This document shows, piece after piece, positions 997 to 53,337 of a stretch of 64,000 nucleotides of DNA. The stretch is taken from positions 186,001 to 250,000 of the forward strand of contig JABSSW010000017.1 in assembly GCA_018902385.1 (NCBI GenBank). The letters run 5' to 3'. Made by a program: the position numbers and the translations under genes. The stretch's first letter is position 1; each line of letters opens with the position of its first letter. Below the pieces are notes generated by a model. The model worked only from the letters and a program-made list of their open reading frames with translations. It searched no databases and was not told the DNA's origin. Source of the DNA: Physcia stellaris (taxonomy: Eukaryota > Ascomycota > Lecanoromycetes > Caliciales > Physciaceae).

Positions 997-2045
997 TTAG
1001 GCACTTCTGACGTTCTCGAGTAACAACCCCTCACATGCGCCGCCCTGCTTGTATTCCTCTCCCAGATCCCCATCCTCCCACTCCGTGCTTTCGCGCCAGC
1101 TACCATCCAGCCAAAGCCCCCCAATGCCCGCGGCGTCCCCAGCCAACACCCTTATACTTCTCACCACCCTCCCCTGGGTATCCAGGAACATCAAAAGCGG
1201 CTTCCCAGTGTGCAGCGCGTCCTCGTCTTCCAGCACAAGCCAGCCAATGACGTAAGCCGCGTGGACGCTTGACTGAAGCACCATGGCTATATAGTCCTCC
1301 AGCTCCTGACCTTGTAAAGACGACAGGTTCTCCAGCAAGCCGGATGGAGCGCGAGAGACCCCACCTTGGGCAAAAGCCCTCAGCGCTTCCATCGATTCCC
1401 GTTGCTGCTCTTGAAGATACTCCCAATACCCTTCTTCCGGCTCCAGAAGCTCTGGAAAGACGTCGAAGACTTGTTGCCAGTTGGCGCCGAAGTCGTACAG
1501 CTCAGGGTCGTTGAAGAGTCGGTCCTCGCCGTCGACGGCAAGCTCCATATCGACGGACTCGATCAGTGATTCATGCTTCTCGTCCGAGTCTGGGGAATAG
1601 CACGTGCGGAGCCAGGCCGCGGTGATCGTACCCCGTCTTGCGGTGTCGCGCTGAGCGGGAGTGCGCCATGGCTGGAGGATGCTTGAGATTTGGGCCGCCG
1701 TGGGGCTTTCGGTTCGTGAATGATCGATGAGAGCCTGCGATGACACATCAGCTTCGGCGGGTTCGTTCACCCCGGCCGGCCGTTGAGCCAGAGCGCGTGC
1801 TCGGAAGACAGCGGCTTACAGTTCGTTCGGGACCGGCTTTGACGTATTGGCGGACCAGTTTCCTTCGCTGCTGGTCCGGGCTCTCGGAAGAGTCAGACTG
1901 CCATTGTTGCTAGTTGCTCCTTCAGTCGGATTCGTCTAGGGAGGGGGCATTGGGCGAGGCATCGACACACCAGTAGGTACTTCTCGGCAGCAAGTGAAGC
2001 CCATGGAGGATCCACGTCGTCAGAGGCTGAGCTTGAGTCACTCAT
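997..2045 (-). CDS. Unrecognised protein, 300 aa, three exons
   Basis: I do not recognise this protein. The model on the minus strand is exon 1 2045-1971, exon 2 1909-1820, exon 3 1734-997, all joined in phase 0. Introns are 61 bp (donor GTGTGT, acceptor CTAG) and 85 bp (donor GTAAGC, acceptor CGCAG). The start MSDSSSASDD was chosen because the long 3' ORF itself begins only with GTG and is preceded by a good splice acceptor. The protein is acidic, starts with a Ser/Asp-rich stretch, has a helical middle region (residues 25-60) and a C-terminal half rich in Trp, Asp and Glu, with a hydrophobic YVIGWLVLED segment. No signal peptide or clear membrane segment is seen. The last exon lies in a segment that changes from C-rich to G-rich. 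It is probably a fungal-specific cytosolic protein; function unknown. Confidence 0.7.
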
Positions 2046-2345
2046 TTGGTCGGCAGATTTTTATTCTAGTTCGACTCAGTGCTGAAAGGGTGACACTAAT
2101 TGCAGACCGTCCGGTGCGGCTGAACAGCACTGAATGAGGATTTCGGGAAACGCATTGTGAGACCCCGTATGGTAAGGAGTGCAATCCTTTCAACAAAACT
2201 TTCAACAATCCTTCCAACAGTGGTGTGAAGGAAGGCAAGCGCTCCGTCAATAATAGCACCAATAGAACGTGCGTCTGATGCATACAGCACTAGAGAAGCA
2301 CGTTTTACTAGTGGTTTCTTTCCTAAACGGACTCTTCAGCCGAAA

Positions 2346-2402
2346 TGGAACACGCTAAGGTAAGCTTCCCAAGCTTATCACCAAGCTTATTTCAACAAGC
2401 TT
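2346..2402. repeat. Cluster of four AAGCTT motifs
   Basis: Four AAGCTT hexamers occur within about 45 bp, and more copies occur near 2730 and 2770. The spacing is irregular, so this is not a clean tandem repeat. It sits at the left side of the decayed coding stretch. Confidence 0.4.
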
Positions 2403-2460
2403 CCTCTACATCAGTCTATTATATTGTTCTATACTTCCACCCCACAGTTTCACAGCCCTA

Positions 2461-3108: not shown

Positions 3109-3177
3109 AACATAGTCTCAGTCTCCTCGATTGGATTTCACTCGCAGAACTTTTCTAAGACCAGTTTTGCTACCAAT

Positions 3178-5432
3178 ATGTTCTCGCTGTGGTTACTCTG
3201 GTCATTTCTCGGCGCTGCCATTATATGTCATACCAGTGCCGTCGCTGGGCATCAACACTTACGCCGGCAAGACGGACCTGTACCCCCAGATACAGTCAAA
3301 GACTGTACTTACTTCTATGACTCTCAACCTGGAGACACATGTGCTTCTATTACTAGTGATTGGGGCATCACCCTACAGCAGTTTCTTACATACAACCCAT
3401 CTGTGAAACCAGATTGTTCTGGGCTCAGGGTTGGAATTGCATATTGCGTAGAAGAGAATTACGGTAATGGCCCGGTATCACCGTCGACAACATCCAGCAC
3501 GCCGCCCATTACGTCCACTCCGACGACCACAACGCCGACACCCACTGGACCCTCCCCGGTGCAGAGCGGCATTAACGCTCAGTGTACGACCCTTTCTATG
3601 CTCAAAGTTGATGTTGCTGATGGTTGGCATAGGCAAACAGTACTACAAAGTGCAGAGTGGAGACACTTGTGCTGGCATTGTGGATATATATCATACTTTT
3701 ACATTACAAAACTTGTCGGTACTTCCGTTCCTATTTCCAGCGGGATTCAATCACGCTTAGAAGCAGCAACTGACACTGTTCATACAGCTATTCATGGAAT
3801 CCCGCGGTCGGAGACGGTAAGACTCTACGCCTAAGGTCAGATCGTACCCCACTGATCACCAGTGAAGCATGTCAAACACTTCTACTTGGTTATTACGTTT
3901 GCGTCGGGATCCCTGGGACTCCCACTGCACCACCAACTACCACCAGTGCAGGAGCTACTCCAGGCCCTTCACCAACGCAGCAGGGTCTCGTCTCCACTTG
4001 TGAGACCCTCTAAAAGCCCCCACTGTATGCGCACTGAATTTTGTGGCCAGGTAAAACCTTCTACAAGGTTAAAGACGGAGATGAATGCGGGAAAATTGTC
4101 AGCTCATATGGAACGTTCTCACTTGCCGACTTCTACACTTGGAATCCTGCTATAGGAACTGTGAGTTGCGTCCCGATCATTCATTTCTCTATTTCGAACC
4201 TTTCCCAAACTCGAGCACATGAACCAGCAGCATTTACGCCGAGTTTCGGTTGATTCTCTGACCGCCAACTTTGAGAAGCAATACTGAGTTCATCACGTCT
4301 CCAGAATTGCGGATCTTTGATCAGTGGATACTACGTAAATCTCCATGGCTCCCCAGCTCAATTTTTCCCTTCGCTAAACCTCATCAGGTTTGTGTTGGTG
4401 TCCCAGGTACACCCACGACTCGGTCCTCCACCACCAGTACGAAAACATCACCCACGCCGACTGGGCCCTCCCCAACCCAATCCGGCATTATTTCGTCATG
4501 CAAGTCGACCCCAATGAGTGAGTGAAATACGCTCCGAGCACCTGTTAACCAACGTGTTCCAGGCACGAAATACTACAAGACAGTGTCTGGGGATACTTGT
4601 CAAGTCATATCGGATAAATTCGGCACATTCACCGTGGCCCAATTCCAGACATGGAATCCTGCGGTGGGACCATCATGCGCCTCATTGTTCTTGGATTATT
4701 ACTACTGTATAGCCGTACCGGGGACACCCACCACACGGTCCACCACCAGTACTACTAAAACCACCTCTACCCCTTCCGGTCCCACACCTACGCAAACCGG
4801 CATCATCTCCTCCTGCACCAAGTATTACAAGACCGTCTCCGGCGACACCTGCCAAGTCATCTCGGATCGCTTCGGCACTTTCAGCGTGGCTTCCTTCATT
4901 TCTTGGAATCCCGCCGTGAAAAGTGACTGCAGTCAGCTCTATCTGGGTTATTACTATTGTATCGCCGTACCTGGGACACCTACGACTCGCACCAGTACCA
5001 GCACAACCAAGACGACTTCCAAAACGCCGACACCAACACCCAAAGGGCCGCAGCCACAGCAACCTGGCATTGTGTCGAACTGCAACAAGTACTACTTAGT
5101 CAAGAGTGGAGACAGCTGCTATACTATCGAGCAGGCACAGCATGTATCGGCCGCGAATTTCCTCAAGTGGAACACCGGGATCAAAAGGTTGGTTTCTTCC
5201 TTTTTCTTTTCCTTTTCTTTGGCTTTCCGAGCACCATCATTTAAACATCCCGCCTTCCTTTCAAGAATTATCCGATCCGGATCTCCGAAGAAAACACAAT
5301 CTCCAAATCCTTTCAAACAACCCTTTTAAATCTCCAAGACACGCAACAAAAGCTAACATTCGAATTTCGCAAACAACCAGTGACTGCAGTAACTTATTCG
5401 TGGGGTATTACACCTGTATCGGGGTTTCCTAG
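3178..5432 (+). CDS. Secreted protein with six LysM domains
   Basis: The start MFSLWLLWSFLGAAIICHT is a signal peptide, followed by a possible Kex2-type site (LRRQ). Nine exons: 3178-3583, 3633-3714, 3788-3816, 3868-3999, 4051-4160, 4305-4334, 4388-4499, 4563-5187 and 5381-5432. They total 1578 nt (525 aa). Splicing restores six LysM modules, each with Y-x(n)-GDTC near the start, a (W)NP motif and a GYYxC(V/I)G ending. The modules are joined by Thr/Ser/Pro linkers with a repeated PGTPTT. Modules 4 and 5 are nearly identical and share a single large exon. The intron after 4499 has a GC donor (GCAAGT) and an AG ac­ceptor; using it is the only way to keep the Cys-Thr-Lys-Tyr-Tyr pattern. The second intron has a weak GTCGGT donor. 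Expected role: binding chitin or chito-oligomers outside the cell, as in fungal LysM effectors. A second LysM gene lies at the window start. Confidence 0.88.
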
Positions 5433-6461: not shown

Positions 6462-6777
6462 TCAGGTAGCCTGCCTAGGGTAGAGAAAGACGAGCCATGG
6501 AAGAAGGAAAAGTTTCCCGCTGATTGAAGATGAAACCTTGGCAGGGGGTTCTCTAGCGGCGGCAGCTAAGGCTAGGCGGACCGTACTACACGTGCTGCTG
6601 ATATTGTGTGGAGGCCTCAGGTCGCATTATCTTCTTCAGCCAAGAAGCCAAGCCACCGGTTAAGAGAATTATCGCGAACCTGTCCTTTGTCTCCTCACAC
6701 TCCTGATAGTACTTCTCCTCCCTCTCCACAATGACCATTGATCTCGCCATCAATGTCCGCCCTCCCGCTGTGCTAAC
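6462..6777. other. Promoter region of the GT71 gene
   Basis: About 315 bp without a gene. The last 100 bp are pyrimidine-rich (CTCC repeats), typical of fungal core promoters. An out-of-frame ATG lies at 6731, 47 bp before the chosen start. Confidence 0.4.
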
Positions 6778-8273
6778 ATGCTCCTCCGCCCCTCCCCACG
6801 TCTTCTACTCTACGCCATCGCCGCCTTCCTCTTCCTCTCCATCTTCACCTTAAACCGCGGTTTCGACCCCAAGAACATCAAACCCACCATCCCCTCCACC
6901 TCCGACATCTGGTCCGAATCCAAACATGGCCCCTCGAAGCCCTCTCCCGCCATCAAAAAGTTCTGGGCCAAATGGGCTAAAATCTTCCACGAATCCCGCC
7001 CACAGGTCGCCGCCATAGCAGTAAAAGAAGTCGCCTCCACGGCCGGCTCAGACGCCGCAAACGGGGCGCGAAAACCACATAGGCAGACCCTTGGGCTTTC
7101 GAAGGAGGTTATCGACGCGCTGCACGACGCACATAAATCCCTGCTCCAAGACCGCGGTGGATTATACGGCTCCCGCTTCGGCAACCAATCCCACGAACTC
7201 TTCTCGGGCACCGGCATAGTCACCGTAGCAGGGGGTCCTCACTTCGCCTCCGCCATAATCAGCATCCGCATGCTTCGAAAAGTGACCACCTTACCAGTGC
7301 ACGTCTTCCTCGAATCGCGCACCCAATACGAGCCCGATCTCTGCAACCGCGTGCTGCGGGCTCTAAACGCAGAATGCTTCATCCTATCCGACTTCTTCGC
7401 CCCAGACAGCCCCATAAAACCAACAGCCTACCAGCTCAAAACCCTCGCGCTGCTCTTCTCCTCCTTCGAAACAATCCTGTACATCGACAGCGACAGCTTC
7501 CCCGTGCGGGACCCCTCCGAAATGCTCTCCACCGAACCATTCCTCAGCACAGGCCTCCTAACCTGGCCAGACTACTGGATCGCAACCGAAGACCCCACCT
7601 TCTACACCATCGCCGGCCTGCCCACCTTCCCCCCACCCTCCCAGCGCGCAGCACCGAAAGCGGCGAGCTCCTCCTCCGCAAATCCACACACCTGTCCAGC
7701 CTGCTGCTGGCGAGCTACTACACCATCTACGGACCCACGCACTACTACCCTCTCCTCTCGCAGGGCGCGTTGGGGGACGGCGACAAAGAAACCTTCCTCG
7801 CGGCCGCGACCGTGCTCGGGCTGCCGTCCTACAGGGTCAAAGAGCACGTCGGCACGCTGGGCTACTTTTCGCCTGAAGGCGCCTTCACGGGCGGCGCGAT
7901 GGTCCAGCATCACCCCGTTGATGACAGCGTCGTGCATAATGGCTCCGACGCCACGGCTGAGGACTCGCGGCGCTGTCGGCCGTTCTTTTTGCATGCGCAT
8001 TTCCCCACCCTAAATGCGGGAAGGGTGCTGGAGGAGGGGAGTTTGGCTGGCCCGACGGGACAGGGGAGACGGTTGTGGGGGAAGAGGGAGGATGTGGAAG
8101 CTAAGTTTGGGGGCAGGGATCTGGAGAAGGAGGTTTGGAGGGAGATGAGGGATGTGGCGTGTAGCTTGGAGACGAGGGTTAGGGATTGGAGGGGGCATGG
8201 CGGGGTTTGTACGCGCGTTAGGGAGCATTGGGCTGCGGTGTTTGAGGGGGGGTATTTGAGTGGGATTATTTAG
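6778..8273 (+). CDS. GT71-type alpha-mannosyltransferase, frame broken near 7630
   Basis: Type II Golgi glycosyltransferase of the MNN2/MNN5-like GT71 kind, expected to add alpha-linked mannose to cell-wall mannan or N-glycans. A short cytosolic N-terminus (MLLRPSPR) is followed by one membrane anchor (LLLYAIAAFLFLSIFTL), then a luminal domain with GIVTVAGGPHFASAI, the DxD-type ILYIDSDSFPVRDP near residue 235 and LLTWPDYW. After TFYTIAGLPTFP the frame breaks at a run of six C (7629-7634). The rest (STESGELLLRKS..., GDGDKETFLAAA, GTLGYF...) continues in another frame to 8273. One extra C would join the two parts into about 498 aa. No GT-AG intron can explain the shift. The 5' part is C-rich and the 3' part G-rich. 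Either the base is missing from the sequence or the gene is a recent pseudogene. Confidence 0.85.
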
Positions 8274-8372
8274 GGATGGGGGTGGGAGGGGGTGGGCGGT
8301 GGGCGGTGGGGATGGGCGATTGGGGTGGGTGGATCGAGGGTGGGTGGATTGGGGGTGGGGGGATTTTGTACA
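8274..8372 (+). repeat. G-rich tract with many GGG runs
   Basis: Just after the GT71 stop the plus strand carries a dense series of GGG-GGGGG runs (GGGTGG, GGGCGGTGGG and similar). This could form G-quadruplex DNA or RNA. It ends the G-rich half of a skew island. Confidence 0.7.
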
Positions 8373-8738
8373 AATATCCCTTGGACAAATTTGCTTGTAT
8401 TACTTTCCAAAGGGATTGGATTGGATGGGATGGTTTTTGTCCGCCTTTTTGTATAGTACGCTCATGTGTAGGTACCTCAGAATGGATATATTTGGAAACC
8501 CGGAATATATATCTGGAACAATCCACATATTTGAAGAGTCGAATACCTTACGATGCATAATAATATATACGCCCAGACTCGAAAGATATCCCAAACACCT
8601 CGCTGAAAATGCGTTGAAATCTCAGCAATTTTCACCCAAGACCGCCGTCCTCTAGATAGTCGCGCTTCCAAATGCTGCACATCCTCTTTCCCACTTCCAG
8701 AAACATCGCTAAATGCCAATCAAACGTCCCATCCCATC

Positions 8739-8858
8739 CCCCTTCCTCTCCCAACCCTCACAACCCCCTCCCCCTCCCCCTTCCCCCAACCCCTCTCTCC
8801 CCTCCCCTCTCCCCTCCCCTCTCCCCTCCCCTCTCCCCCCCCTCTCCCCTCCCCCAAA
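8739..8858 (+). repeat. Pyrimidine tract with 12-bp tandem repeat
   Basis: A nearly pure C/T tract. A 12-bp unit CTCTCCCCTCCC starts at 8795, 8807 and 8819, and a diverged copy at 8831. It lies directly downstream of the ERO1 stop codon (minus strand), so the ERO1 3' UTR would be purine/G-rich. Confidence 0.75.
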
Positions 8859-8864
8859 CAAACG

Positions 8865-10657
8865 CTACAACTCATCCTTCCCCGGAAAGCTAAAATCCCA
8901 ACTCCGCTCCTGGACCTCGAGCCCCAAAAAATAGCTCCACAGCCGACTGATCTCAACGACGCAGATGCGAAACGCCTTGGCCGGGAACGTGATCCAGCTC
9001 CTCAGGACATAGAGATACGCTCTCCAGACGAGGCGGAGCTCGCTCTTGATGGTATTTTCTTCCCGCTTGATTTTTTTTGTGGGGTCGAAATCTTCGAAGG
9101 GATCTGTGTCTGCGCTTTCTGCGGAGGAGAAGGAGGAGGAGGAGGGCGCGGCGGGGGATCGGTGGGGTGGGCATCGACGCTCGCGGGCCCAGGCGCAGGC
9201 GTAATCAGCGGATTTTGGACCGTATCGCGCTCGAGGGCCAAATCTCTCAGTCTGCCCAGCGCAGCCAAGCTATTAGACACGCGATCGAGGGTATTAACCA
9301 GCGCGACCAACTCCGTGCGTCGCAGGAGGGGATTCTCGCCATTCTTATCCTCGTCGAACTCGAAGAGGACTTTGAGCGCGGTGCCGTAGCCGACGGTCTG
9401 CAGCTTGCCCCACAGCCGGCATTTGTCGCACCCCACGCAGTCCATCAGCCGGCTCACGTTGCGGAAGCGGTTGCGGAAGTCTTCTTTCAGGCCGCCTTCC
9501 GGGCCTTGGAACATGACGCTTTCGTCGAAGATGCGGGGGCGTGCGGAAGCGGCGTCGGCCAGGGCGAGGATCTTGGACTTGGTGGCGGCGTCTTGGCGCG
9601 GGTCGCCGGAGCAGAAGGTGTAGCTGCGGAGGTAGGTGCGGAGTTTGGCGGTTGCGCGGAGGAGGAGGGCGTAGTTGAAGTAGAGGTTTGAGACGCGCTC
9701 GGGGTGGGTTGCTAGGCGGTCGATGTAGCATTGGATGTTGGGGCCCCAGGCGCCGGTGGTTTGGTTTAAGTAGTCGTTGCAGATGTGTGTGGAGATGGAG
9801 GCGTGCATGCCGCTGATGATGCGGTAGAAGACTCGTTTCTCGACACAGCTGTCGTCGAAAGTCAGGGAATTTTCGGAGGGTGAGTTGGCTTGAATGACAT
9901 TGCGGAGGTCGTTTTTGGCGTGGAAGAGACCCATCGGGTTGATTTGGGGGAGAGCGCTGTCTTCTTTTGAGAAACAATTTTCACGATAGATCGCGTCCCA
10001 AACGTCCGAACCTGCGTAACCGGTGAACCGCTCCGGGTTGTCGACGAGGGACACGTAGTCGCCTTTTGCGGTTGCCGACTCATCCTCCGGGACGCAGTAG
10101 TCACGCTCGTCACATTCGTCATCGTATTCCACGACACAGCTTTCCCCTACATTCTCTCCTAAAGTTCCTTGCAAGGGTTTCTGTGCGCCTCTTTCTTTCT
10201 GGAGCTGTCGTCCCGGGTGGGCAGCTTTCGGTCCTTCTAATTTGCTGAGTTCCTCCGCTCTCCATATCTCTGGAATGTCCTTTTCATCTTCCAGGGTATC
10301 CACTTTACATGCAATATTCCCGCATGTGCCCGTTTCGTCGTCCCATGCCTTGACAGGACATGCTTGGTCATAGAGGTTCAGGCGATAATAGGCGAAAAAG
10401 TCGGTATCTTGTGTGATTGATTTGAGTGAGGGTGAGAGGGCATTGTTGAGGCCATCGAGGGTAGAGTAAGAGGCGCAGGCGTCAGAAACAATGGATTTTG
10501 GGTCGATCTGAAGGAATCTGTTATCGCTGTCCGTCGAACATATACTTCCTTTACTCACTGCGCAGACTTCTGAGGACGCTGATCCAGCAGCACTTGCATG
10601 AGCAGATCCCCAGAGCGCGAAAATTGCTAAGTAGAATGTTCTGACGGAAGAGCGCAT
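8865..10657 (-). CDS. ero1: ERO1 endoplasmic reticulum thiol oxidase, frame broken near 9155
   Basis: FAD-dependent ER oxidase that re-oxidises protein disulfide isomerase. The start at 10657 gives a signal peptide (MRSSVRTFYLAIFALWGSAHA). The core has the conserved Cys-rich N-terminal region, FAYYRLNLYDQACPVKAW, TGYAGSDVWDAIY, GMHASISTHI and the active-site CVGCDKCRLWGK near residue 408, then GYGTALKVLF. The main ORF runs on to 9002, but with the wrong tail. In the next frame, from about 9160 down to the stop at 8865-8867, lies a typical ERO1 C-terminus (DPFEDFDPTKKIKREE, then a Trp/Phe-rich helix region) ending in GKDEL. One extra base, for example in the C-run around 9153-9157 (minus strand), joins both parts into about 597 aa. 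I could find no intron with the right phase. The KDEL end fits an ER-retained protein and supports the shifted frame. Confidence 0.92.
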
Positions 10658-11015
10658 AGTGACCAGATTTGTATGAAGGAGGTCGTAGAAATCAAGGAAA
10701 GAGAAAATAAGGTTTTAGGCTTTTTCTCTCCAGTGTTACCTCCGCATCATAAAGGAGTAGTCAAAGCAGTCAAAGCAGGGTGTGTAAAGTAAAGTGGTTG
10801 TTGTCCTCGTCGGCTATCGAATGGAAATCATACAGGAACAAAGAGATCCGCTATGCCGAGGTAAAGACTGACAAACAGTCAAAGACAAGGAGAAAGGACC
10901 CGAGCTATGTACTAGGTGTTGGCGAGAGTATGTGCACTGAAGATTAATGGATCAGCAAGCGGAAGGATGAATGATATTCAACGCCTCCGTCATTCAATGC
11001 CAAGAATAATTAATA
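10658..11015. other. ERO1 promoter region
   Basis: About 360 bp between the ERO1 start and the MITE. Purine-rich on the plus strand near 10670-10720. No gene seen. Confidence 0.4.
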
Positions 11016-30260: not shown

Positions 30261-31347
30261 TCAAGTCCCCTCACACCCCTTCAACATCTTCCTCAGCACC
30301 CCCATCAACGTCCCATTCTCCAACGCAGCCGCCACACGCTCCTTATCGCCCAACTGCTTATTCACCCCCTCAGCCGTACTATGCGTGCCCTCCTTGATCC
30401 TAACATCGACTCTGAAGCGGGACGGCAGGGCTTGTTCGAGGCGGACGCGCACGCCGAGCCCGATGACGGTTGCGAGCGAGCAGTGCGTTATCGTGGGGGT
30501 GATGTAGACTGTTAGGACTGTGATTGGCGGGGAGGCAGAGGAGGGGGAGGAGGGGGGGAAGAGGGGCGTGAGGTGGATGTCCTCGAGGTTGACGACGGAG
30601 AGGGAGCCTAGGGTTAGGGGGTGTTCGGGGTCGGTTATTGGGGCTATGAGATCTGGGGTGGGGGGTTTGTTAGCGGAGATGGGTTTTCGGAAGGGGTGGG
30701 TGGAGGGGTTGGGAAGGGGTGTTGTTGGAGGGCTGGAGCTGTCAATCGAGCCCCTTGGCCTGTGCGGGCGGTAGTCAAAGCTGGCAGTGGTCAAAGCTGG
30801 TGTCTGGTGCTGACGTATGGGCTTTGACCTCTGTTTTCTTTAACCATTGAATGTGGCCTATGACGGCTCTTCGTGATGGACAAGCTTGACACCTGGTATT
30901 GTGCTTTCAACCCCGCTTCTGTATAGCCTATCTATTCTCTTCGATCCACGGCAGCAATGAGCTAATAGGCGTAGACCATGAAGGTAGAGCCTGTCATTAT
31001 TTTCGAGATGCTGGCCAAAGGGTATCTTCGTCGCCACTATCGATGGTAGCCGTGCTCGACTTCGACACTGATTCTGACGGCCTGGACCATTCGAGAATGA
31101 GAGCACGCGACTCACCGTATATCTCTTGCTCGTCGATAGGCTCGACTATATCATCATCGTCCGAGTTCTCTTCATCCGAGGATGTCGAAGGTGTGAATGG
31201 ATCGGGCGAATATGCACTTGCGGGGACGGTGCTCGAGAACAGGCCGAGGGTACGCTGCTTTGACGAGTGAGGAGAAGTCTCCCGCCGGCGGCTTGGAAGA
31301 TCTGAGGTATTGCGAACTGTGGGGTTGGCGTTGAGTATCTCGGACAT
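30261..31347 (-). CDS. cia2: CIA2/MIP18-family iron-sulfur assembly factor
   Basis: Component of the cytosolic iron-sulfur targeting complex that hands Fe-S clusters to target proteins. Exons 31347-31116 and 30652-30261 (624 nt, 207 aa). The splice joins EEDPIDEQEIY-type sequence (here DDDIVEPIDEQEIY) to DLIAPITDPEHPLTLGSLSV, the family signature. Next come ITPTITHCSLATVIGLGVRV, with the conserved Cys, and KEGTHSTAEGVNKQLGDKER. The intron is 463 bp, far longer than others here; donor GTGAGT, acceptor CCCCAG with a CTAAC branch motif. The loop between NLEDIHL and ITVLTVY is longer than usual and Pro/Ser-rich. Exon 2 lies in a C-to-G skew island. Confidence 0.92.
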
Positions 31348-38725: not shown

Positions 38726-40141
38726 ATGCCTCCACCACCAACCTTTGCAGCGCGGCGCAAAGCCCGCAAAGTCGGACAGGATGAAGACGATTCGAGCTCT
38801 CAACCGCCCGACATGTCCAACGCAGACGCAGGTAAATAATCTCCCTATTCCCTCAATCGCAATATTCTAACTCTCATACCCAAACCCAGACGGCTGACCT
38901 CCCAATGACCCAGAACCCACACCAACCGTGATCCGCCCGCGCCCCTCAAAATCCAAACTCCGCAAACCCTTCACCCCAGGCGGAACATCCATGCTGGACG
39001 ACCCAGACAGCTCAAGCACCCCCATCTTCACGCCCAAAAATCCAACCTGAGCCGCATCGCCCTAGCCCAGAACGCAGCGCGCAAATCCCGGCTCCCGGCC
39101 CCCGATCGAACGCGCGACGACGAGCAAAGACCAAGCTACACGACCGACGCCCTCAACGAGCTGAAATCCTCCACCCCTTCCGCGCCCATCCCCTCCACCT
39201 CCGCCGACCCAGGCTCCGACGAAATAGCACTCGACCTAGCCTCCAAATTCGGCACCGACCTCGCCCTGCGCGCCGAGAACGGCATCATCCCCACCACGGC
39301 CGAGATCGCAGAGAAGAAAGCGCGCCGCAAGCGCCTCGCCGCCGAATCCTCCTACATAAGCCTCCACGGCACCGAAGACTCCGACGACGAACCCCGCGAC
39401 GACGATATCCTCGAGCGCCCAAAGCATAAATACAGCGAAACGAGACTCGTGCCCGAAGACGAGGAGATAGCAGAGGGCTTCGACGACTTCGTGAGCGACG
39501 GCGCCGTCGCGCTAGGCCGCAAGGCGCAGCGCGAGCAGAGCCGGCAGCGGAAGGCGGAGATCAGGGACTTGATCGCGGACGCTGAAGGCGAGGGGGAGAG
39601 CTCGAGCGACGATAGCGAAGCGGAGCGCACGCGCGCGTACGAAGTTGCGCAGACGAGGAAGGGACTGGAGGGACTGCGGCACCCCGACGATTCCCAGCAA
39701 CAAGAGCAGCAACAGAGACCGAGGACCCCGCCAAAGATCACGCCGTTGCCGTCGCTGCAGGGGTGTTTGGAGAAGTGGAGGGAGCGGGCGACGCTGTTGG
39801 GACGGCAGAAGGAGAGTCGACTCCGGAGGTTGGAGGAGGTGAGGAGGGAGAAGGCTGATATTGCGGGGCGGGAGGTGGAGATTCAGAGGTTGCTGAGGGA
39901 GGCGGGGGAGGTTTATGAGAGGTTGAGGGTTGAGGCTGGGGTTCTGGTGGGTGGGATTGGGGTTGATGGGCGGGGGCTGCTTGGGGATGGCGGAGGTGTT
40001 GCTGATGAAGGCAGAGCGGGCATAGGCATGGGCATGGGCATGGGCAGAGGCTTAGAGTCTTTCGGCGGAACCCCCAACACTAACAGAGCATCCCCGAGCC
40101 TGGAAAGTACGCCGCGGAGGGTGGAGGCTATGAGTCCTTAA
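38726..40141 (+). CDS. NTR2-like spliceosome disassembly factor, frame broken at 39036-39040
   Basis: Resembles the nineteen complex-related protein 2 (NTR2) family, which with Ntr1 and Prp43 takes apart the intron-lariat spliceosome. Exons 38726-38831 and 38914-40141. The N-terminus has FAARRKARKVGQDEDDSS and RPRPSKSKLRKPFTPGG. The frame then meets a stop just after TPIFTPK, at a run of five A. With one extra A it continues as SNLSRIALAQNAARKSRL, through SSYISLHG and RLVPEDEEIAEGFDDFV to a coiled-coil region (EVEIQRLLREAGEVYERL), about 444 aa in all. No intron fits between the two parts. Near 40026 a GGCATG repeat encodes Gly-Met repeats. The region runs from C-rich to G-rich. Convergent with KRE33, 189 bp apart. 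Confidence 0.8.
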
Positions 40142-40330
40142 AATTGAGCATATGTACAATGCATATCTATCAAGTGCACTATTCGCGATATCCCTTTTCC
40201 ATGTTCTGCATCATCGAGCATAGTCGATCGATCAATCTTGGCTACTACTGAGGGACGTACTTGATAAGTTGTGTGCTGACTTGCGAGAGCAACAGCATAA
40301 GAGATCTAAGATAGGGGACAGGAGGTCCAG

Positions 40331-43300
40331 CTAACCCTTCATCTTACCCTTACTCTTCCTCATCCCCATCTTCAACCTCTTCGCCTCCGGGTCTCCAATC
40401 TCCTCTTTATAGATTTCCTGCGCGGACAACTCTCCCTTCTTCCGCTTACCTTTCTCAGTCTTGAGAACGCTGACTGTGACCTCACCCCCTCTATCCGCCA
40501 CTCCCTTTCCCCCTCTGTCCCCACCATCCTTCCCCCTCCCTCCACTCCTCCCTCCCCCTTCCCCCTCACCGCCTTCTGAACCTGCCGTTCCGCCTCCTCC
40601 CACTCCTTCCCCCCAGCCTCAATCTCATACCTCTCAAGCGGCAACGCATCGATAAGCGCCCGCTGCTTCTCCTTCAACTCGCGATCCACCGCCTCGCCCC
40701 CCTCCCTAAGCTCCTCGCCCAGATCCTGTTGCAGGGGGGCTTTATACTGGTGCGTTGTGGCCGAATTCTCAGCGCCGTCCTGCTCCGCAGCTCCCACAGT
40801 CGCAGCCGTCGGCGCCGATTCCGGAATCTCAGCTCCCACGGCGCTCTCCACCAAGGAGCGGAAATGCGCGGCCACCTTGCGGACGATCTTGACGAACATG
40901 GCCAGCAGCTGGCTACTCGGCAGACCGAGCTCTTTCTCGACTTCTTCGAGGACCTTGCGCTGCAGCCCGATGGCGAGGAGGATACTGCTCTGCACGCCCG
41001 TCAAGGTCAGCGCGGGGCTGAGGCGGGAGGTGAAATAGAGGAGGGAGATGGAGGGGATCAGGTCCAGGATGACGTGGTAATCGAGCATGTTATTCGCGTA
41101 GCTATCCAGCCTCTTGAGATCAAACGGCGAGAACAGCGCGTCCAAGTCCGCCTTCGACAGAGGGAGCGCCGGGGACCCGGTATCGAGTTTCGCGCCTTGG
41201 TTCGCGGATTCGTTGATGCTGAGCGCGAGCACGCTTGGGAAGGAGCGGAATTGGAAGCTGAGGAGGCTTAAGAAGCGGCGTTGGAAATCGCGCGCGAAGG
41301 CGCCTAGCCAGGCGCTGTCGTTGCTGCCGGAGCTCAGCACGCGCAGCATCACGCAGCTGTGCTCGCCGGTGAGCTCGTTGGGGGTTTGGCGCAGGTAGAC
41401 GGGGGCGAAGAGCGCGCGTTTCCAGAATTTGTGCAGGGGCTGCGTGAGCCCGTAGCTGACGCCTAGATAGTCCAGGGGGTGGGAGCGCGCTCGGAGAGTT
41501 TGGAGAAGAGGGGTGGCATAGCGGCGATATCACGGACTTTAATATTGTCGGTCAGGAGCGTGGAGGTGCTGAGGTCGGAGTCTGTTACTCGGGGCATGCT
41601 GTCTGCTTCCGTAGTTGCTGGGGCGGAGGTCTCGGAGAGGGATGTGAATTTCCCTTCGTAGAAATCTACGAGGAGAGACAGCGCGCGGCTGCCGTAGCCC
41701 ATGTGCGTGTACTCTGGGTTTGTGGCTATACGGACGATTCGAGCGCCAGAAAGACCTGCGAAGTCTTCGTCTTGAAATTGTTGCGATACGAGCCAGGGGA
41801 TTAGGTCGCCGCCGGCGCGCTGCCCTCTGCTGAGGCTGTTCATGACGCTTTGCCGACTTATGCGACCTTCCAAGGCGACTTGGATGACGACGAGGGGTTC
41901 GGGGAGACGTGGGCTGGAGTCATCGATCGGTGGGACAAGAACGAAGAGGTGGTGCGCTGGAGCGTCGGACATGAGTTGAAGGTCGTTGGGGGAGTTTTTG
42001 TAGTGTGAGGCGACGTAGAGGGCGATCATCTGTTGGAGGAACTTTTCGGAGACGGGGTGAAATGAGAAGAGGGTGTCGCGGTTGACGTGGAGGAGTTCGC
42101 ATTTTGAGGGATGAGGACTTCCAAGGGAGAGAGCTTTTGGAGATGGGAGAGTTGCGTCGAGGCAGAGGACTTTGTTGAGCCATTTCTCGACGGAGTCGCC
42201 TTGGGCGTAACGAATTGGTTCGGAGAGGGTGATTTCTCGAAGTGTGCGGCCGCGAGCAGATGTGGGTTCTCCGTTCATCAATGACTTATCGCCTGATCGA
42301 TCGGCCACTTTCACTTCGCTGTCGCCGTTTGCTTTTGGTCCGCCTCTAGATTGATCGCGAAGTTGCTGTATTAGTTTCAGGGATAGTGATCTTCCTGTAC
42401 CCTCGTAGCCGTTGATCGTTGAAGCCATAAAAACGAGATAGGGACCCATAAGTTTCCTTACAAGTGGAAGAGGAATGGCAGCTGCTTCATCGATGACGAG
42501 AAGCTCTGCCTGACCTAGGGTGTAGGCATCTTGAGGTTGAATGTACTGTATGGTCTGCCTATGCTGCCTATGAACGTTCACACGTACGATAGCTTTGTTA
42601 AAATCAGGATTAGTAGACTGAATGATGGTGTAGTCAGCATGATCGAGATAATCGAGAGCATCGAAGCCTTTGAAGATGAATTCAAATAATGTTTTCAAGT
42701 TCTCTGGGCTAGGAGATGTGATGAAAATATTGCTATATCCGTGTGCTATAGCTGCTGCAATCGCTACACCTAGTGCTGCAGATTTACCTCTGCCTCGCGC
42801 TGCCGTCAAGGTGACAGTACTTCGGAGAGTCTTCTCCGCAATAGCATCCACGAAAGTTAAGAGTGCCTTTGCTTGATCAACCGTCTTTGCGAGCTGGACG
42901 AGTGATCCCACAGGCTGCGAGTCGGAAAGGCTTTCCTTAATACCATCAAGCTCCTTTTTGGCTTTCGACTTTCCATCTTCATCTGGATCAGGTGGCGGAA
43001 GAGGTTTTACGTTCTTCCCACCTGATATCGGCAGAACATTGAGCTCGTCATCCACAAAGAGACAGGAGTCACAGCTACCCAAAGATAGAACGAAGCGCTC
43101 GTTGAAGCGGGCGGTGACGTCGTCATGTGCCTCTGTTCGATACCTCGAATGTATATCCATTGACAGCGTGTAAAGCTGCTTCAGACTCGTCATGCCCTTT
43201 AAAAGCAATAAGACCATTCCACCACCTTCGACTGTCTCAATTGTACGCGCGAGGAGATTTGGTGTAATGGCTTCAAAGTCTTGTAATATACACATCCCAA

Positions 43301-43768
43301 AGGTGTTCCCCAGGATCTTGTCCGTCTCTTTATAGTAGACATAGCGTATACTATGCAGAGCCAGAAACAGCTCGAAAGGATCTTCTGTATTTGCCTCGCG
43401 AATGCCACGCTTTATCTCTTTCTTGATCTTGTTTTCTCTCTTCTTGCGGTGACTAGTGAAGCCTAAGAGATCCTTCTTATATGCCCATAGCACTGACTTA
43501 TTCTGTTTGATATCCACGCTCGACATGATGTAATGGAGGTGGACAATGACATCCTTGGCTCGATCGCCGACCACGATAAAGAAGCTGCGCTTCTTCTCCT
43601 ATATTGATGCGTATCAGAATTGGGGCTCGCCGACTTCACATTGAGCTTATTCCTACCTGCACTCCATTCCTGATAAGGGCAGGGATTCTCGAATCTCTAA
43701 GTTGTTGTTAGCTCAAAGAAACCTTTAGCAGCATATATGTTCAGAGCATACATTGCCTTTCGAGGCAT
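40331..43768 (-). CDS. kre33: KRE33/NAT10 RNA cytidine acetyltransferase, two frame breaks
   Basis: Nucleolar enzyme that makes N4-acetylcytidine in 18S rRNA and tRNA and is needed for 40S subunit assembly. Exons 43768-43752, 43696-43657 and 43598-40331. The start MPRKAIDSRIPALIRNGVQ is completed by two small introns (55 and 58 bp). Domains in order: N-terminal TmcA-like (VGDRAKDVIV, KSVLWAYKKDLLGFTSHRKK); helicase with Walker A (TAARGRGKSAALG, near residue 285) and VIDEAAAIPLP; GNAT acetyltransferase (IVRIATNPEYTHMGYGSRAL); C-terminal tRNA-binding region. The frame breaks after SERAPTP at a run of five G on the plus strand (41475-41479); one more base restores PLDYLGVSYGLTQPLHKFW. A second break lies in the G-run-rich part near 40500-40575, before VTVSVLKTEKGKRKKGELS. 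With two added bases the total is 1108 aa, a normal length. Confidence 0.92.
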
Positions 43769-43914
43769 TCTCCCTCCACAAGCTCTCAGGCTGCTCGCCC
43801 CGCTCCTGGGAGAATGCTACGAACTCTGTCGTTCTTGAAAGACCAATTGCGCAAATATCAAGGCCTTATTTCCACATATGTAAGGTCAGATCTGGGAGGT
43901 CGTGTAAGATATTT

Positions 43915-44490: not shown

Positions 44491-45958
44491 ATGATAGCGT
44501 CCATCTCATATCTTCTATTTATCATTAGGATTCTACAGGATCTCTCGAGCCTTTTCTTCGAGGAGTGACTTGAGCAGTATGATTGTTTTGACGATGAAAG
44601 GACTCTAGTAGTACTACGAGGCTGAAGAATTGAAGCTGAGATACTACTCGTTGGATTCGTTCGATCTTAGTAGTACCTTCTCACTTTCCAAATCCTAACT
44701 CACACTCGTTTCTTTTCATCTTAATACAGCAACAATATACTCATATAATTGGTAGATGGGCTTATGAACCATAGCTGTTGCATACGCTCACTCAGTGTAT
44801 TGGCGACGGTACATGCACAGTGCCACTCCATGATGAAGACTAACACATCTAATTCAGGAGCACGCAAAAGGATGAGGCGATCGGGATGAACAAAACAGAT
44901 GGGTGTCTACTAGTCTTCTCGATTAGTAGATCGGCCACTCTGGAGCCGGGCTTGGGAACAAATAAGACATTCTCAATTGTGACCTTTCTGATTCTTTGTA
45001 TGGCGTTGCATCATCAGAATGATTAGACCAGGGAAAATTCCCCATGATCCTCGCCCCCACTCACAGATAATGAAGCAAATTACCCCGACGAACAAAGATC
45101 TCGCCGTATCCCTATCCTTGCTCAATATAGACCAATCGATCCAACAACACCAACAGCCTCCACACCCCCATCCCCCTGTACCTCCACTCAGGTCTCCAAA
45201 GATTCTTTCGACCATCTAACAAGACCCCAATTAAATTTTTCAACGAATGGAGCGACAGACTCCCAGACCCATAGCTAGAACAGTAAATCAAGTCTGTTTA
45301 CTTATCTCACCAAGCAGCTCTGAAAAATGGAAGATAGAATCACGTCTCCGGGGCCACGGATGAAGTAACGCTTCCAACTAAGCTCTCTCGAAACCATCAA
45401 TCGAAATACTTTAGTTTATAGATTCGCTGATAGCGGTATATTTGTTAAGTATGGAGGAGGGAAAGAGGGCGGAAGGAGGTGGGATTGGATGCTGGGCTAG
45501 AGGGAAGGGAGGAAAATGGAAATGGGGAGTAGGTGCAAGATGAGGAGAGGGAGAGGGAGGAAAGAATGCGGAAGCGAACAGGGAGTGGGTTGGGGAGGTG
45601 CTTAGGATGGAGGTATATATTTAGACTACTTTTGGGAGTGAGCGAGGAGGAGTTTGGGACCCGACCCAGGACAGGCTCTGAGGCCGGATTGATAGGCCTC
45701 TTGGCTAGATTAGTTCTCAATTAGCTTGGCAGATGCTGGATTATTCTGTAAACAGTTCGCATTAGGACACATAGTCGAGGTCACGGAGGTCATAGAGTTA
45801 GTCTGATTTCTGTATTCATGATTGCCGTTACTCTGCTTCAATGCCTCGTCCCCATTTCGTCCCAGCCCATCTCATTCCACGATCACTACCCCCAACGACT
45901 CCTCCGCCCCATACACAACATCTACCTCGACATCCCCTCCTACATCAAGATGAGTAAT
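44491..45958. other. Intergenic, with purine-rich tract at 45452-45600
   Basis: About 1.47 kb without a recognisable gene. The tract at 45452-45600 is strongly GA-rich on the plus strand. Small ORFs here have no protein-like features. Confidence 0.5.
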
Positions 45959-46709
45959 TCATAGATTAGTCTGCCACTTATGCTTCCTCTTCAAATGGTC
46001 CCTCAACTTATCCTTCCGCGGGAAGCCATTCGCGCCCTTGCGACGACAATCACGGACGGGACAGTCGAGGTCCTTGGGGCCGACCTGATGGTTTCTGGCG
46101 TGGCGATTGAGCTCGCACTGGCGGCCGAAAGTTGCCGTGCAGCCAAGGTGAGGGCAGAAGAGTCGACCATTGGCGATGGCGGTAGCACTGCTAGACGCTA
46201 CGGCGGCAGGCTGGAAGGACGTAGCTGGTGGAGGACCATAGCTGTAATCGGAGCCGATATGCTGGTAAGGGGTTGCATTATGGAAGCCATATCCAGTGAC
46301 AGGTGGATGCGTCATCCCACGGCTGTTGTTGGCATGAGTGGCCAATGCTGTGGTAGTGGACTCATAGGGGTTTGTATATCCAATGGTGGAGTGATCGTTA
46401 AATTGGTCCCCGAGGACTTGACTGGTTGACCTCTGCTCGCTCTGATAAATGCAGTCTGTGAAATCATAGGCCACAGTATGGTAAATTTCCATGTGTTTGC
46501 TGAGGCTCTGCTCATTGGAGCACAAGGTCTCACAACCGCCATGCAAGCACGGGAATGCTGCTGAAAACCTTGAACCACAGATTAGTGTAAAAACAAAAAA
46601 AAAGAACCAACCGAGCCCCAGCACCACCGCCTTGCATTCGATATGCATTAGACAGCGAGCTAGGCTCTGGCTGGGTCCGAGAGAAGTCCATGATTCGAGC
46701 GGGTATCAT
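45959..46709 (-). CDS. C2H2 zinc-finger protein
   Basis: Exons 46709-46612 and 46568-45959; intron 43 bp with CACTAATC branch motif and CAAG acceptor. The first in-frame ATG is at 46709 (MIPARIMDFSRTQ); the ATG at 46691 is an alternative. About 235 aa. Three zinc-finger-like units: CLHGGC...KHMEIYH near residue 40, CPHLGC...RHARNH near 175, and CPVRDC...DHLKRKH at the C-terminus. The last two are close together and fit a DNA-binding pair of the type found in many short fungal C2H2 proteins. The stretch between is Ser/Thr/Tyr-rich (ATPYQHIGSDYSYGPPP). Target unknown. Confidence 0.75.
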
Positions 46710-46967
46710 TGGACGCGGAGGGAGCGAGGTGATGCCAAGAAAGGGCGTACAGGAGATGGGCTGGTCCAATGAGGAAATAGCAACAACAAGGCTGCGAGAG
46801 TTCTCGAGGTCCAAAAAGTTCTCAAAGCATGTGGGCAAGACGAACTTCTTGTAAACGTTGGAGTAACCGCCCAGGCTTTCTTAGTGCGCACTGTGCAGCT
46901 TGGAAGGGCGTAGGGCGTATCCCGTGCTACTTTGAGAGCCATCATCTTCATGCATGCATGTACATTT

Positions 46968-49617: not shown

Positions 49618-51502
49618 ATTTCAATCGCACTGTAACCGACCTCGAGAAATCCTAATAGGGGTTTCCCTGGCAAGGTGTTGTGTGGTGTAGACTCATCTCT
49701 CAATCTGCTAAAACAACTACTCGAGATCTCCACTTCGCCTTTGGAAGGAAGGAAGGAACTCCGAAAATCAATACATTAGCAACAAAGTCATCGACATTGC
49801 ATACTAGCTGCGGCCTGGTTGTTTGAAAGATCTCTCTGGTCTCAAATTCAAATTATGGACTGGTATCGTGGTGCATTTTCGGTCGTAATATTTCATTGAA
49901 TAGACACCGGAGAAGGGTCATAGCCAGATTGCTGAGCTTCCTCCAGACTTCTTCTTCGGTACCTGTTACTACCCGGAGCTATCGTGCTTCCAACCAGAAA
50001 TAAACGTAGTGTGGTTTGACCGTCGAACATATGTACTTTGCCGCCGGCAAAGCATCACACTAGGCTGTTAGGTCCCAGATGTTTTAGTTCTATTGTGGAG
50101 CTCGTGAAGGTTAACCAATTTCACTGGCAGCGTCTTCGGAGATGCTGTCTTGGCGAATGCCTTTGGCTTGATATTTCGCTCGTCCTTTGTCTCGCCGGTT
50201 TTTGAAGAATGACGAGGTATACTCTACTTTTCACCGCTACACTCTTACTCACCGAATGGGAGACGCGCCCACTCAGACGCTGGCCATCACGGTTTTATAT
50301 CTCATATCTCCTGACACCCCGTTCTTAATCGAATTTAATAATACATCGAACCTCACGCGGGTATATCCTATTTCATCACACTCGGGACCAATGTGACGCT
50401 ATCGACACGTTAACGCGTCCAATATTCTGCATCCACGGAAATTAACTCTCTTGTGAGGACACTAAGACATGCAGATCTCCACCCATTGATGATTATTGAA
50501 GTAAGGGCCAACACAAAAATAGATACAGCACTCGATTTTCACCGAATAACATGTCTTGTACCCGTGTGTATAGTCAACGGTAAGCAAGGATAAAATACTG
50601 ATCGGGCGAGGCCGCGCACAAATTTCGCGGAAATAGATATATCTCCTCTGAAACTCATTCTCTCCTTTTCCTCTTCGGAGCACCCTCACCCTCGCCTCCC
50701 GAATCTAGCGACTCCCTGTTAATCGGCATGCAACAACTCCGAGATCTCGCTCTCTCCCCTCCTTCCAGCCCACCTGGACAGCCCATCCTCAGGATCCATA
50801 GCGGGAAGCTGTTTGTGACGGGAAGCTATTCGTGGCCCACCTAGACAGCCATCCATAGCGGGAAGCTGTGAACGGGGATGGGAGAAATGGGTAGTTAGAT
50901 GTAGACCTAGCACTGGACCAGAGTCTTCCATATCCCGCTGTCTGATCTTGCATAGTTCTCAAGAGAAGGGAGGAAATGGGCTTTACTTCGTCAGTGGGCT
51001 TGGGCGATATTGCGAGACCTGTGCCGTCCTCCCATTCTCATACGAGCCGCCTCAATAATAGAAACATAACCCAGTCCTCTTTACCCTCTAAAATTTCACT
51101 CCCATCCTCGTCAGTATTCTTCTGTCCTCGGAAGCTCGGTCACCAAAGCACGGTTCGATAGGAAGTCTTGGCATTTTATATCTATCCCTTTCCCTTGAAG
51201 CAACTCGTTCAACACGATGAGGTCTTGCGACGACATATCCCCCCAGCGCTAAGCTAGTTTAAGGTTTCTGGAGAGGAGCATCGGAGTTGTTAATCCAACG
51301 TCCTGTCATATAAACAAATAAAGCCATGATCTGAACAGGGGAGATCCTGAGATAAAGTGTAGGAGCAGAAAACCAAGAAGAAGAAACCCACGACAGCGAT
51401 CAGAGACCAGAGCGAGAAGAAAGCGAATCATACATCTTTCCAAAAAACCCTACAAATTCGACACAGCCGAAACCTTCCTACTCGAAAACGCAGAAACCTT
51501 CC
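49618..51502. other. Intergenic between convergent genes
   Basis: 1.9 kb with no recognisable gene. It contains a short imperfect direct duplication (50770-50878) and an ORF at 50187-50396 without protein-like features. Confidence 0.5.
50770..50878 (+). repeat. Imperfect direct duplication
   Basis: The block CCCACCTGGACAGCC ... ATCCATAGCGGGAAGCTGT is followed by a second copy, CCCACCTAGACAGCC ATCCATAGCGGGAAGCTGT. A third partial GGGAAGCTAT lies between. It looks like a local tandem duplication with a deletion in the second copy. Confidence 0.65.
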
Positions 51503-53337
51503 TCACCCCCACCCCCCCGCCTCACTCTCCCTCCTCCTCCTCTCCCTCTCCTCCCAAAACCCCTGCTCCGTCTCCTGCGGCCGATCCATATCCAGCCCCA
51601 CGGTCCACACGCTCGCCACCATCGCCACAGCCGAAAGCCCACACATAGTAACCCAAACGACCTTCAACGCATCGGCATAGCTCTGCACCAGCTGGCCCTT
51701 AGCATCGCCCCTCTCCCTCGGAAAGCCCTTAATAATCTGCACCAGCGCGGCGGCATCGCGGCTGTACTCCTCCGCGCTGGCCGCCAGGGCGGGGTAGGAC
51801 AGCAGCTTTGTCTTCATCTGGTTCTGGAAGACGGTGCCGCCGACGGCGACGCCGAGGGCCTGGCCGAAGGCGCGGAAGAAGGAGAACATGGCGACGGCGA
51901 AGGCGAGGTCTTTGTTGGACGCGGAGGCTTGGATCGCGAACGCCATGCCCGCGAAGAGCATCCCCGTTCCCAGCCCCGAGACGAGGTTGAGGAGGATCCA
52001 GGCCAGCGGTTTGGTGTGCACGTCGAGAAGGTAGAGGAGGCCTGTGCCGGCGGTGGTGAGGACCCAGCCGCTCCAGACGGCCCAGCGGTAGCGCCCGGTT
52101 TTGGAGACCAAGATGCCCACTATGACTGCTGCGGGCGCGACGGTGAAGGTTTGGGGGAAGAGGGAGACGCCGGAGAGGATGGGGGTTTCGCCTTTCACGG
52201 CTTCGTAGTAGAGTGGGAGGTAGTAGAGGAGGCACCAAAGGATCATGCCGTGGATTGTCGTGCCCAGGTAGCTGACGGCTGCGGTGCGGTTTTTGAAGAT
52301 GTTGAGTGGGATTAGGGGTTCGTGCGCGACGAATTCTTCGTAGAGGATGAAGAGGCTGAGGCCTGCTATGCCGACGATGAGGGGGACGAGTGTTCGCCAG
52401 GAGTTCCAGGCGTAGGTTACGCCGCCCCAAGTGATGGGGATTAGGAAGCTAGTTGTTGAGCCGATGAAAAGAACGGAGCCAGCCCAATCGACACGCCGTA
52501 GCTGGGAGGTTAAGTTACTGGGTTTGAAATTTAATTTTAGAAAGAGAGGGACGAAGACAAACGCGACGCCGATGATTGGAAGATTGATGTAGAAGATCCA
52601 GCGCTACATGTTGCGTCAGCTAACCCGGTGGTCACATGGTGTGGGAAAGCATACCCAAGAGACTTTTTGAGCAAGAACTCCACCAACGACGGGCCCGGTC
52701 ACTGATCCCAACGACCACGTACCACTAATTACACCAAACCATTTGCCTCGAAGCCTCAATGGAACCAGGTCTGTGACTACAATCTCGGTCAAAGCGATAA
52801 GACCGCCGCCGCCCACACCTTGGAGCGAGCGACCAACAAGCAACAATGTAAATCCATTTGCTACAGCCGCAACAACTGCACCCGCCAGAAAGAGTAGCAA
52901 TGCAATCAAAATCATCGGCTTTCGTCCGAATATGTGGGAAAAGGAGGCAAAGCTAGGCTGAAAGATAGTGGAACATAGCAAGAAAGAGGTTCCAGACCAG
53001 AAGGCTTCGATGGCAGTGCCATTTAGCTTCTCAGAGATGATCTAGATGTATACATACATGAGATTTTACCCTTAAAGAAGAGTTGGAATAGACTCACTGG
53101 TAGCGCAACGGACAATGAGGTGCCATCCAGTGCTACTGCCATAGTAATTACGGCCAACGTAAGAAAGGCAAGGTAAAGCCGCAGAGAAGGCTTGAAACTC
53201 GCCGGCGGAGGTTCCCTAAATTCTGCCCTAAGCTCGCGCTCGATCTCATCGTCATGGAGACTGCTGATGCCTGTGCTCGTTGACATTGATCGAGGCGCTA
53301 GGCCTATAGCTTGACTGTTCGGTCTAATTGGCATCAT
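51503..53337 (-). CDS. MFS transporter, 14-helix DHA2 / TRI12-like type
   Basis: Exons 53337-53098, 53041-52655 and 52603-51503 (1728 nt, 575 aa); introns 56 and 51 bp, all phase 0. The start MMPIRPNSQAIG is the first ATG; a later ATG (MSTSTGISS) is possible. A charged cytosolic N-terminus precedes the first helix (LYLAFLTLAVITMAVALDGTS). The motifs FGRKPMILIALLLFLAG and LLLVGRSLQGVGGGGLIAL, and LGSVTGPVVGGVLAQKVSWRW after splicing, are typical of fungal drug:H+ antiporters with 14 membrane segments. More helices follow to residue about 540 and a charged tail (ERERRRRE). Substrate unknown: a toxin, drug or siderophore exporter are all possible. No biosynthetic gene cluster is next to it. The 3' third is in a skew island. 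Confidence 0.9.

Follow-up and report, generated by a model that had tools for sequence, protein, structure and literature searches.

GC-rich islands that switch from C to G near the 3′ ends of convergent genes in Physcia stellaris

We analysed a window of 64 kb, positions 186001-250000 of contig C17 in the 44.0-Mb assembly of the lichen-forming fungus Physcia stellaris. It contains nine GC-rich islands in which the plus strand turns from C-rich to G-rich. The original prediction had listed these islands from the sequence alone, and on re-examination all nine are GC-rich and all switch from C to G. Its seven hand counts per 60 bp were exact on recount (7621-7680, C33 G11; 8101-8160, G30 C4; 29161-29220, C32 G5; 29641-29700, G28 C6; 40501-40560, C39 G1; 51481-51540, C35 G4; 52141-52200, G29 C9). 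The GC content of the islands is 0.59-0.64, compared with 0.488 for the remaining 53,544 bases of the window, a remainder that also omits the fade to 42200 and the gaps 8370-8740, 29740-30110 and 40110-40340. In all nine islands the GC skew is negative in the first half (-0.21 to -0.65) and positive in the second (+0.07 to +0.61). The islands are listed below with the strand of the gene or open reading frame (ORF) that they cover.

1020-1750, minus strand: 3′ part of ORF 1000-1815, which has no Pfam match; best switch at 1445, 448 bases before the stop.
6780-8370, plus strand: Mannosyl_trans3 gene, ORFs 6742-8010 and 7137-8270; best switch at 8011, about 262 bases before the stop.
8740-9850, minus strand: 3′ end of ERO1, ORF 9005-10714; best switch at 9026.
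24480-25220, plus strand: VRR_NUC exon 24486-25220 of a FAN1-like gene; best switch at 24894, 329 bases before the stop.
29090-29740, plus strand: 3′ end of a Vps3844 gene, ORF 28741-29727; best switch at 29460, 270 bases before the stop.
30110-30740, minus strand: most of the MIP18-family ORF 30264-30839, named by its homologues; best switch at 30413, 152 bases before the stop.
38880-40110, plus strand: NTR2 ORF 38909-40138; best switch at 39455, 686 bases before the stop.
40340-41500, minus strand: 3′ end of a NAT10-type gene, ORFs 41466-43598 and 40375-41529; best switch at 40969, 597 bases before the stop.
51490-52430, minus strand: 3′ end of an MFS transporter gene, ORF 51506-52603; best switch at 51786, 283 bases before the stop.

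The two Mannosyl_trans3 ORFs appear to be one gene joined by an intron, and the VRR_NUC exon probably belongs to the same FAN1-like gene as an upstream ORF with a FAN1_TPR match. The last ERO1 exon probably lies in ORF 8868-9269, itself without a Pfam match; this would place the switch at 9026 about 161 bases before that stop. The distances from switch to stop in NTR2 and NAT10 exceed the typical value, and the island on the NAT10 side fades to about 42200. The strand is settled by Pfam matches or homologues for eight of the nine islands, namely those in Mannosyl_trans3, ERO1, VRR_NUC/FAN1, Vps3844, the MIP18 family, NTR2, NAT10 and the MFS transporter. The NTR2 ORF matches a Physcia stellaris protein (98% over 90%). 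Homologues of the MIP18 and NTR2 ORFs carry neighbouring locus tags, and sit on contigs of equal length, in other lichens, e.g., Gyalolechia gomerana and Xanthoria mediterranea, suggesting that the gene order is conserved. Two candidate identities were rejected: a repeat element, as the one island tested (stretch 29161-29730) is single-copy and matches only itself in the assembly, and a structured RNA family, as the window has no Rfam match at the gathering score.

The wider tests cover 314 kb, consisting of the window, 200 kb of contig C1 and five other 10-kb pieces. Switches were detected with a symmetric matched filter of two 250-base arms at a threshold of 0.08 (also 0.12) and a GC content above 57% or above 55%, with ten dinucleotide shuffles as chance controls. 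At GC above 57% and a threshold of 0.08 we found 27 C-to-G switches and no switch from G to C (9:0 in the window, 15:0 in the 200 kb of C1 and 3:0 in the five other pieces); at GC above 55% the numbers were 40 and 4. Without the GC condition the excess in the window is modest (29 vs. 21 at 0.08; 19 vs. 12 at 0.12), because the G-to-C turns sit in AT-richer DNA. At 0.12 the G-to-C peaks of the window have a GC content of 0.45-0.52, and several lie between neighbouring islands. Shuffled versions of the window gave 7.2 C-to-G and 6.3 G-to-C switches at 0.08, and 0.2 of each at 0.12, again without the GC condition. Most of the C-to-G peaks at GC above 55% (29 of 40) sit 100-450 bases upstream of an ORF stop, whereas 300 random trials placed a mean of 13.8 there (maximum 23) when drawn within ORFs and 6.4 (maximum 14) when drawn anywhere. 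The predicted excess of C-to-G switches at gene 3′ ends is present in these 314 kb, which are a subset of the genome. Two strong C-to-G switches at ordinary GC content (at 45325, GC 0.47, and at 46057, GC 0.55) are found by a zinc-finger-like ORF at window positions 45001-46200. Skew switches therefore exist outside GC-rich islands too.

When ORFs were aligned on their stop codons, the sense strand showed an excess of C from about -900 to -350 and an excess of G from -300 to about +200. Across 139 ORF stops, the sense GC skew between -800 and -400 was about -0.13 to -0.15, and it reached +0.17 over the final 100 bases. Genes on the plus and the minus strand behave alike, as had been observed for the window, and the pattern extends past it. 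We refer to the adjoining C-rich and G-rich arms as a dipole. In the 27 ends with a strong dipole the median position of the switch is -288 from the stop (quartiles -332 and -195). In 16 ORFs of at least 500 amino acids the bump stays at the same distance from the stop, which rules out a gene-wide gradient alone. The dipole score inside long ORFs was 0.004 (22 positions). Shifting the anchors upstream by 1500 or 2500 bases left strong dipoles at 4 of 101 and 4 of 99 anchors. The corresponding downstream shifts gave 24 of 102 and 11 of 99, an excess to be expected where the anchors reach the facing gene with its own dipole. The mirror pattern yielded one strong dipole, and each of ten shuffles yielded none or one.

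Centred on the switch, the 27 strong ends show a GC content of about 0.62 just before it and about 0.59 just after it, compared with 0.55 at 400-300 bases before and 0.52 at 300-400 bases after. The skew extremes are -0.39 on the left and +0.50 on the right, and the two arms have mean strengths of 0.211 and 0.216. The shift is seen at each of the three codon positions. In 24 strong ends, which were selected by their skew, the share of C at fourfold sites goes up from 0.29 to 0.51 in the C arm; the G arm has a share of G of 0.49, up from 0.20, with C down to 0.18. The same course is seen in 52 unselected convergent ends: far upstream of the stop their C:G is 0.279:0.198, in the C arm it becomes 0.406:0.187, and over the final 150 bases it is 0.242:0.351. 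The values for 48 tandem ends are 0.289:0.191, 0.299:0.183 and 0.250:0.215, respectively. The skew continues past the stop, with +0.15 and +0.11 in the first two 100-base bins of convergent ends and +0.26 and +0.11 in those of the 24 strong ends. These observations bear out the claim that codon choice follows the island. As fourfold and 3′ flank sites are involved, we set aside a composition driven by the protein, and CpG methylation was set aside on the grounds that the observed/expected ratio of CpG is near 1 (1.01 and 0.94 in the arms of strong ends, 0.96-0.97 in weak ends).

The protein sequences also shift. Glycine makes up 12.4% of residues in strong ends and 5.9% in weak ends (last 300 bases). 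An ORF on C1 matches the Physcia stellaris RNA exonuclease 3 (100% over 91%), and among the matches listed for this protein the 17 best are more strongly G-coded over their final 50 residues (mean 0.49) than the other 103 (mean 0.21; p = 7e-10, uncorrected for shared ancestry, with near and far split by rank among the best 120 matches). NTR2 proteins show a weaker, non-significant trend (6 vs. 114 among the matches listed, p = 0.10). For the MIP18 protein we found no such trend at its conserved C-terminus between near and far matches among those listed; at that end the island has to sit in synonymous sites.

The islands depend on the orientation of the neighbouring gene. In the stop-aligned profile, 46 convergent ends, i.e., those with a facing neighbour within 3 kb, go from a skew of -0.23 to +0.25 with GC rising to 0.578, while 35 tandem ends go from about -0.10 to +0.10 and 58 other ends are intermediate. 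The mean dipole score is 0.101 at 45 convergent ends and 0.038 at 73 tandem ends (p = 1.8e-4). The 27 strong dipoles were found among 104 ends, a set that leaves out same-strand ORFs less than 300 bases apart, which may be exons of one gene. Of these dipoles, 23 are at the 50 convergent ends and 3 at the 47 tandem ends (Fisher p = 8e-6), and the last is at one of seven piece ends. Islands thus occur outside convergent ends too, including 3 of 32 ends of the close same-strand ORFs. When these close ends are pooled with the tandem ones, the preference for convergent ends holds at ORF minima of 250 amino acids (16/32 vs. 4/47, p = 5e-5), 300 amino acids (10/23 vs. 3/31, p = 0.008) and 350 amino acids (8/20 vs. 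2/28, p = 0.01).

Strand assignment matters for this comparison. Shadow frames open up in GC-rich islands and, the signal being palindromic, an ORF called on the wrong strand would place its stop at the opposite end. In 13 of 30 strong ends the antisense frame ties with or beats the chosen ORF by an amino-acid score, which is a weak one, and two of the 13 are fixed by Pfam. After all ends of doubtful strand were dropped, whether strong or not, 15 of 33 convergent ends still had a strong dipole, as did 2 of the 26 close same-strand ends but none of the 29 tandem ones (p = 2.6e-6 for convergent vs. the other two together). Five strong ends on C1 also have their strand fixed by Pfam or close homologues; the Pfam scan of C1 covered 55 of the 75 ORFs contained in single pieces (13 more ORFs span two pieces) and gave a match in 28 of the 55. 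Both genes are identified at four junctions. Vps3844/MIP18 is strong at both ends. Mannosyl_trans3/ERO1 and NTR2/NAT10 have islands on both sides with one side only passing the rule for strong dipoles, which was applied there to the ORF stops 8013 and 9001 instead of the gene ends that we infer, and within a restricted range of positions. At the junction of a polyketide synthase thioesterase and a fructosamine kinase the dipole is in the thioesterase only. The proposed link between islands and convergent 3′ ends is upheld beyond the window.

A bias of this general kind is already in print. For fungi, the accessible part of McLean and Tirosh (2011; PMC3315797) describes genes whose 5′ ends are biased towards C and whose 3′ ends are biased towards G, and puts forward both mutational and adaptive origins. 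Shared with that skew are the C-to-G shift of the sense strand toward the 3′ end and its presence at fourfold and other codon positions, in the 3′ flank and in amino-acid use. Their 3′ G bias corresponds to the +0.17 in the last 100 bases of our 139 ORF ends, whereas their 5′ C bias is weak here (-0.08 to -0.11 over the initial 200 bases, counted from predicted start codons, in 25 ORFs whose neighbour is divergent). The negative correlation between skew and GC content given there contrasts with our rho of +0.53 between dipole score and GC over 138 ends, a different measure. Unlike the skew in the accessible part of that article, the present one takes the form of discrete GC-rich islands with a set distance from switch to stop and a strong preference for convergent ends, and these three features are what is new here; the words “convergent” and “tandem” are absent from the main text of PMC3315797. 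Among the matches listed in our literature search, outside which most subscription journals fall, the nearest precedents are McLean and Tirosh and PMC555766. The latter, as far as its accessible part goes, likewise deals with a local GC strand bias at a gene end, but at start sites.

A comparable switch is known from another setting. The promoters in mammalian CpG islands carry GC skew, with the sense strand switching from C-rich to G-rich inside a GC-rich island. Unlike these, the switch described here lies at gene 3′ ends within coding sequence and has a CpG observed/expected ratio of about 1.

We regard the observation as real, and it looks like a sharper, orientation-dependent form of the base-composition bias known in fungi. 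The data show the position and polarity of the islands, their dependence on neighbour orientation as given by the ORF models, and their action at all codon positions and in the 3′ flank. Since all codon positions and the 3′ flank take part, the force works on DNA or RNA and not on the protein, and since the two arms have opposite skews, it must tell the strands apart. Our tentative preference, held at somewhat below an even chance, is that the islands are compositional dipoles fixed to gene 3′ ends by a strand-asymmetric mutation or repair bias that goes with the end of transcription and is strongest where genes converge. On this reading transcription or its repair is the probable agent, the bias would be mutational rather than selected, and a GC-raising component would act across the junction. 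In outline, a long-lasting asymmetry of mutation or repair would accompany late transcription, for which slowing or head-on meeting of polymerases, R-loops and an exposed sense strand offer a candidate route. Its result would be a sense strand that is C-rich over about 450 bases, switches some 290 bases ahead of the stop and is then G-rich over about another 450 that reach into the 3′ flank; codon choice and the tolerant parts of proteins would yield to this asymmetry.

Several points weigh against this transcription-linked bias or soften its support. Its least explained part is the C-rich arm, which exposure of the sense strand does not account for. The 24 convergent junctions have a strong dipole on both sides in 7 cases, on one side in 7 and on neither in 10, and skew amplitude did not covary across convergent junctions (rho = 0.28, p = 0.18, n = 24; -0.07, n = 22). 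Moreover, the neighbour classes derive from ORFs rather than transcripts, and dipole centres were sought only from -600 to -101, with 3 of 27 at those limits. Strong ends were chosen by their own skew, which sharpens their profile, and choosing the best split also sharpens the switch somewhat.

An alternative that we hold to be unlikely is selection, by which G-rich sense 3′ ends would form R-loops or G-quadruplexes, or would avoid C, and so aid a clean stop of the polymerase between facing genes. The preference for convergent ends and the G-richness that runs on into the 3′ flank agree with it, a loose G-quadruplex pattern occurs in 12 of 14 ends examined, and C-avoidance at 3′ ends is proposed in the accessible part of PMC3315797. 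Runs of GGG and CCC, however, showed no excess over synonymous shuffles (z = -0.06 and -0.10, standard error about 0.3, in 14 of 21 qualifying ends), and folding was slightly stronger than in shuffles (mean z = -0.82, standard error 0.45, 12 shuffles each), with three ends at -2.7 to -4.3. Such selection also leaves the C-rich and GC-rich upstream arm unexplained, and the shifted amino-acid make-up, as seen for glycine, looks like a cost. Neither the R-loop terminator suggested as a cause in the original prediction nor a G-quadruplex one is supported by anything more than base composition.

GC-biased gene conversion at recombination hotspots in convergent ends, with the skew secondary to the rise in GC, is likewise unlikely. 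The GC maximum at the switch would fit. So would the GC of the two flanks, which covaries across convergent junctions (rho = 0.62, p = 0.006, n = 18) and with the spacer (rho = 0.57, p = 0.013), and does so only there (divergent -0.16, n = 16; tandem 0.19, n = 38). Something is therefore shared across the convergent junction. With one AT-rich outlier the convergent rho is 0.82, and it is 0.76 in the 23 junctions without it; in the ten junctions with both ORFs of at least 230 amino acids it is 0.60 (p = 0.07). Two facing ORF ends at about 619200-623030 of C1 have a GC content of 0.26-0.27, far under the rest, and are possibly a mutated repeat region. The argument against conversion is that a process favouring G and C alike cannot make adjoining C-rich and G-rich arms, such as those at the fourfold sites of the 52 unselected convergent ends. 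Being strand-blind, biased conversion alone, another of the causes suggested at the outset, fails on these opposite skews. Loss of C in the G arm would have been a further disproof but is weakened, as the drop at fourfold sites is modest in unselected ends (0.285 to 0.243, p = 0.001) and occurs in tandem (p = 0.04) as well as convergent ends (p = 0.04); it is larger in ends picked as strong (0.287 to 0.181). The opposite skews thus carry the argument. According to the accessible part of PMC5844332, the conversion bias is very weak or absent in Zymoseptoria.

A bolder proposal, improbable in our judgement, is that head-on transcription causes a bidirectional DNA transaction, such as break repair or replication restart, to start recurrently in each facing gene about 290 bases before the stop, writing the mirror-image C and G arms and the GC peak. 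If so, gene orientation alone would set a mutational landscape able to reshape protein ends.

At a replication origin, one strand would be expected to turn from C to G. Each island might mark a site of replication initiation, or a place where another bidirectional DNA transaction recurrently begins, with the arms as mirror-image records, and we hold this to be quite improbable. The polarity fits that expectation (background in the accessible part of PMC3315797), the arms are equally strong and the fourfold shares of C and G are near mirror images. Nine islands in 64 kb, with pairs less than 1.6 kb apart, are from general knowledge too dense for origins, however; the arms measure only about 450 bases, and the sites keep to the stop codon of their gene and not to the spacer. 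For the replication-linked cause that had been put forward, the polarity fits, but the density and the placing before each stop do not agree with it.

Finally, the idea that the pattern is a by-product, whether of chance, of codon preference, of a family of repeats or of ORFs called on the wrong strand of GC-rich DNA, has very little going for it: shadow frames, the palindromic signal and the antisense ties could be read that way, but fourfold and 3′ flank sites take part, the tested island is single-copy, shuffles and the mirror control are near zero, strand is fixed for most window islands and the five C1 ends, and the convergent preference grows once doubtful ends are removed and persists in ORFs of at least 350 amino acids.

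Returning to the transcription-linked bias, a sequence signal that depends on neighbour orientation ties genome layout to mutation or repair. As a single genome offers both kinds of end, the convergent ones can act as the case and the tandem ones as the control, which makes the origin of gene-end skews in fungi testable. A caution also follows: near convergent ends, the codons used and the make-up of protein C-termini may stem from this bias and not from selection on the protein.

Three further features were seen in the sequences. The window ORFs 3109-3831 and 4526-5326 (plus strand) contain repeated YY-x-V-x-SGDTC-type motifs, which by eye resemble what we take to be LysM repeats. The translation of ORF 62583-62942 (minus strand) repeats CNSTGQR and IQRDSV-type units and is likely to reflect a tandem repeat in the DNA. 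At about 658-671 kb of C1, ORFs with SAT, ketoacyl synthase, PP-binding and thioesterase domains lie together with an AflR-type regulator and are likely to form a polyketide synthase cluster.

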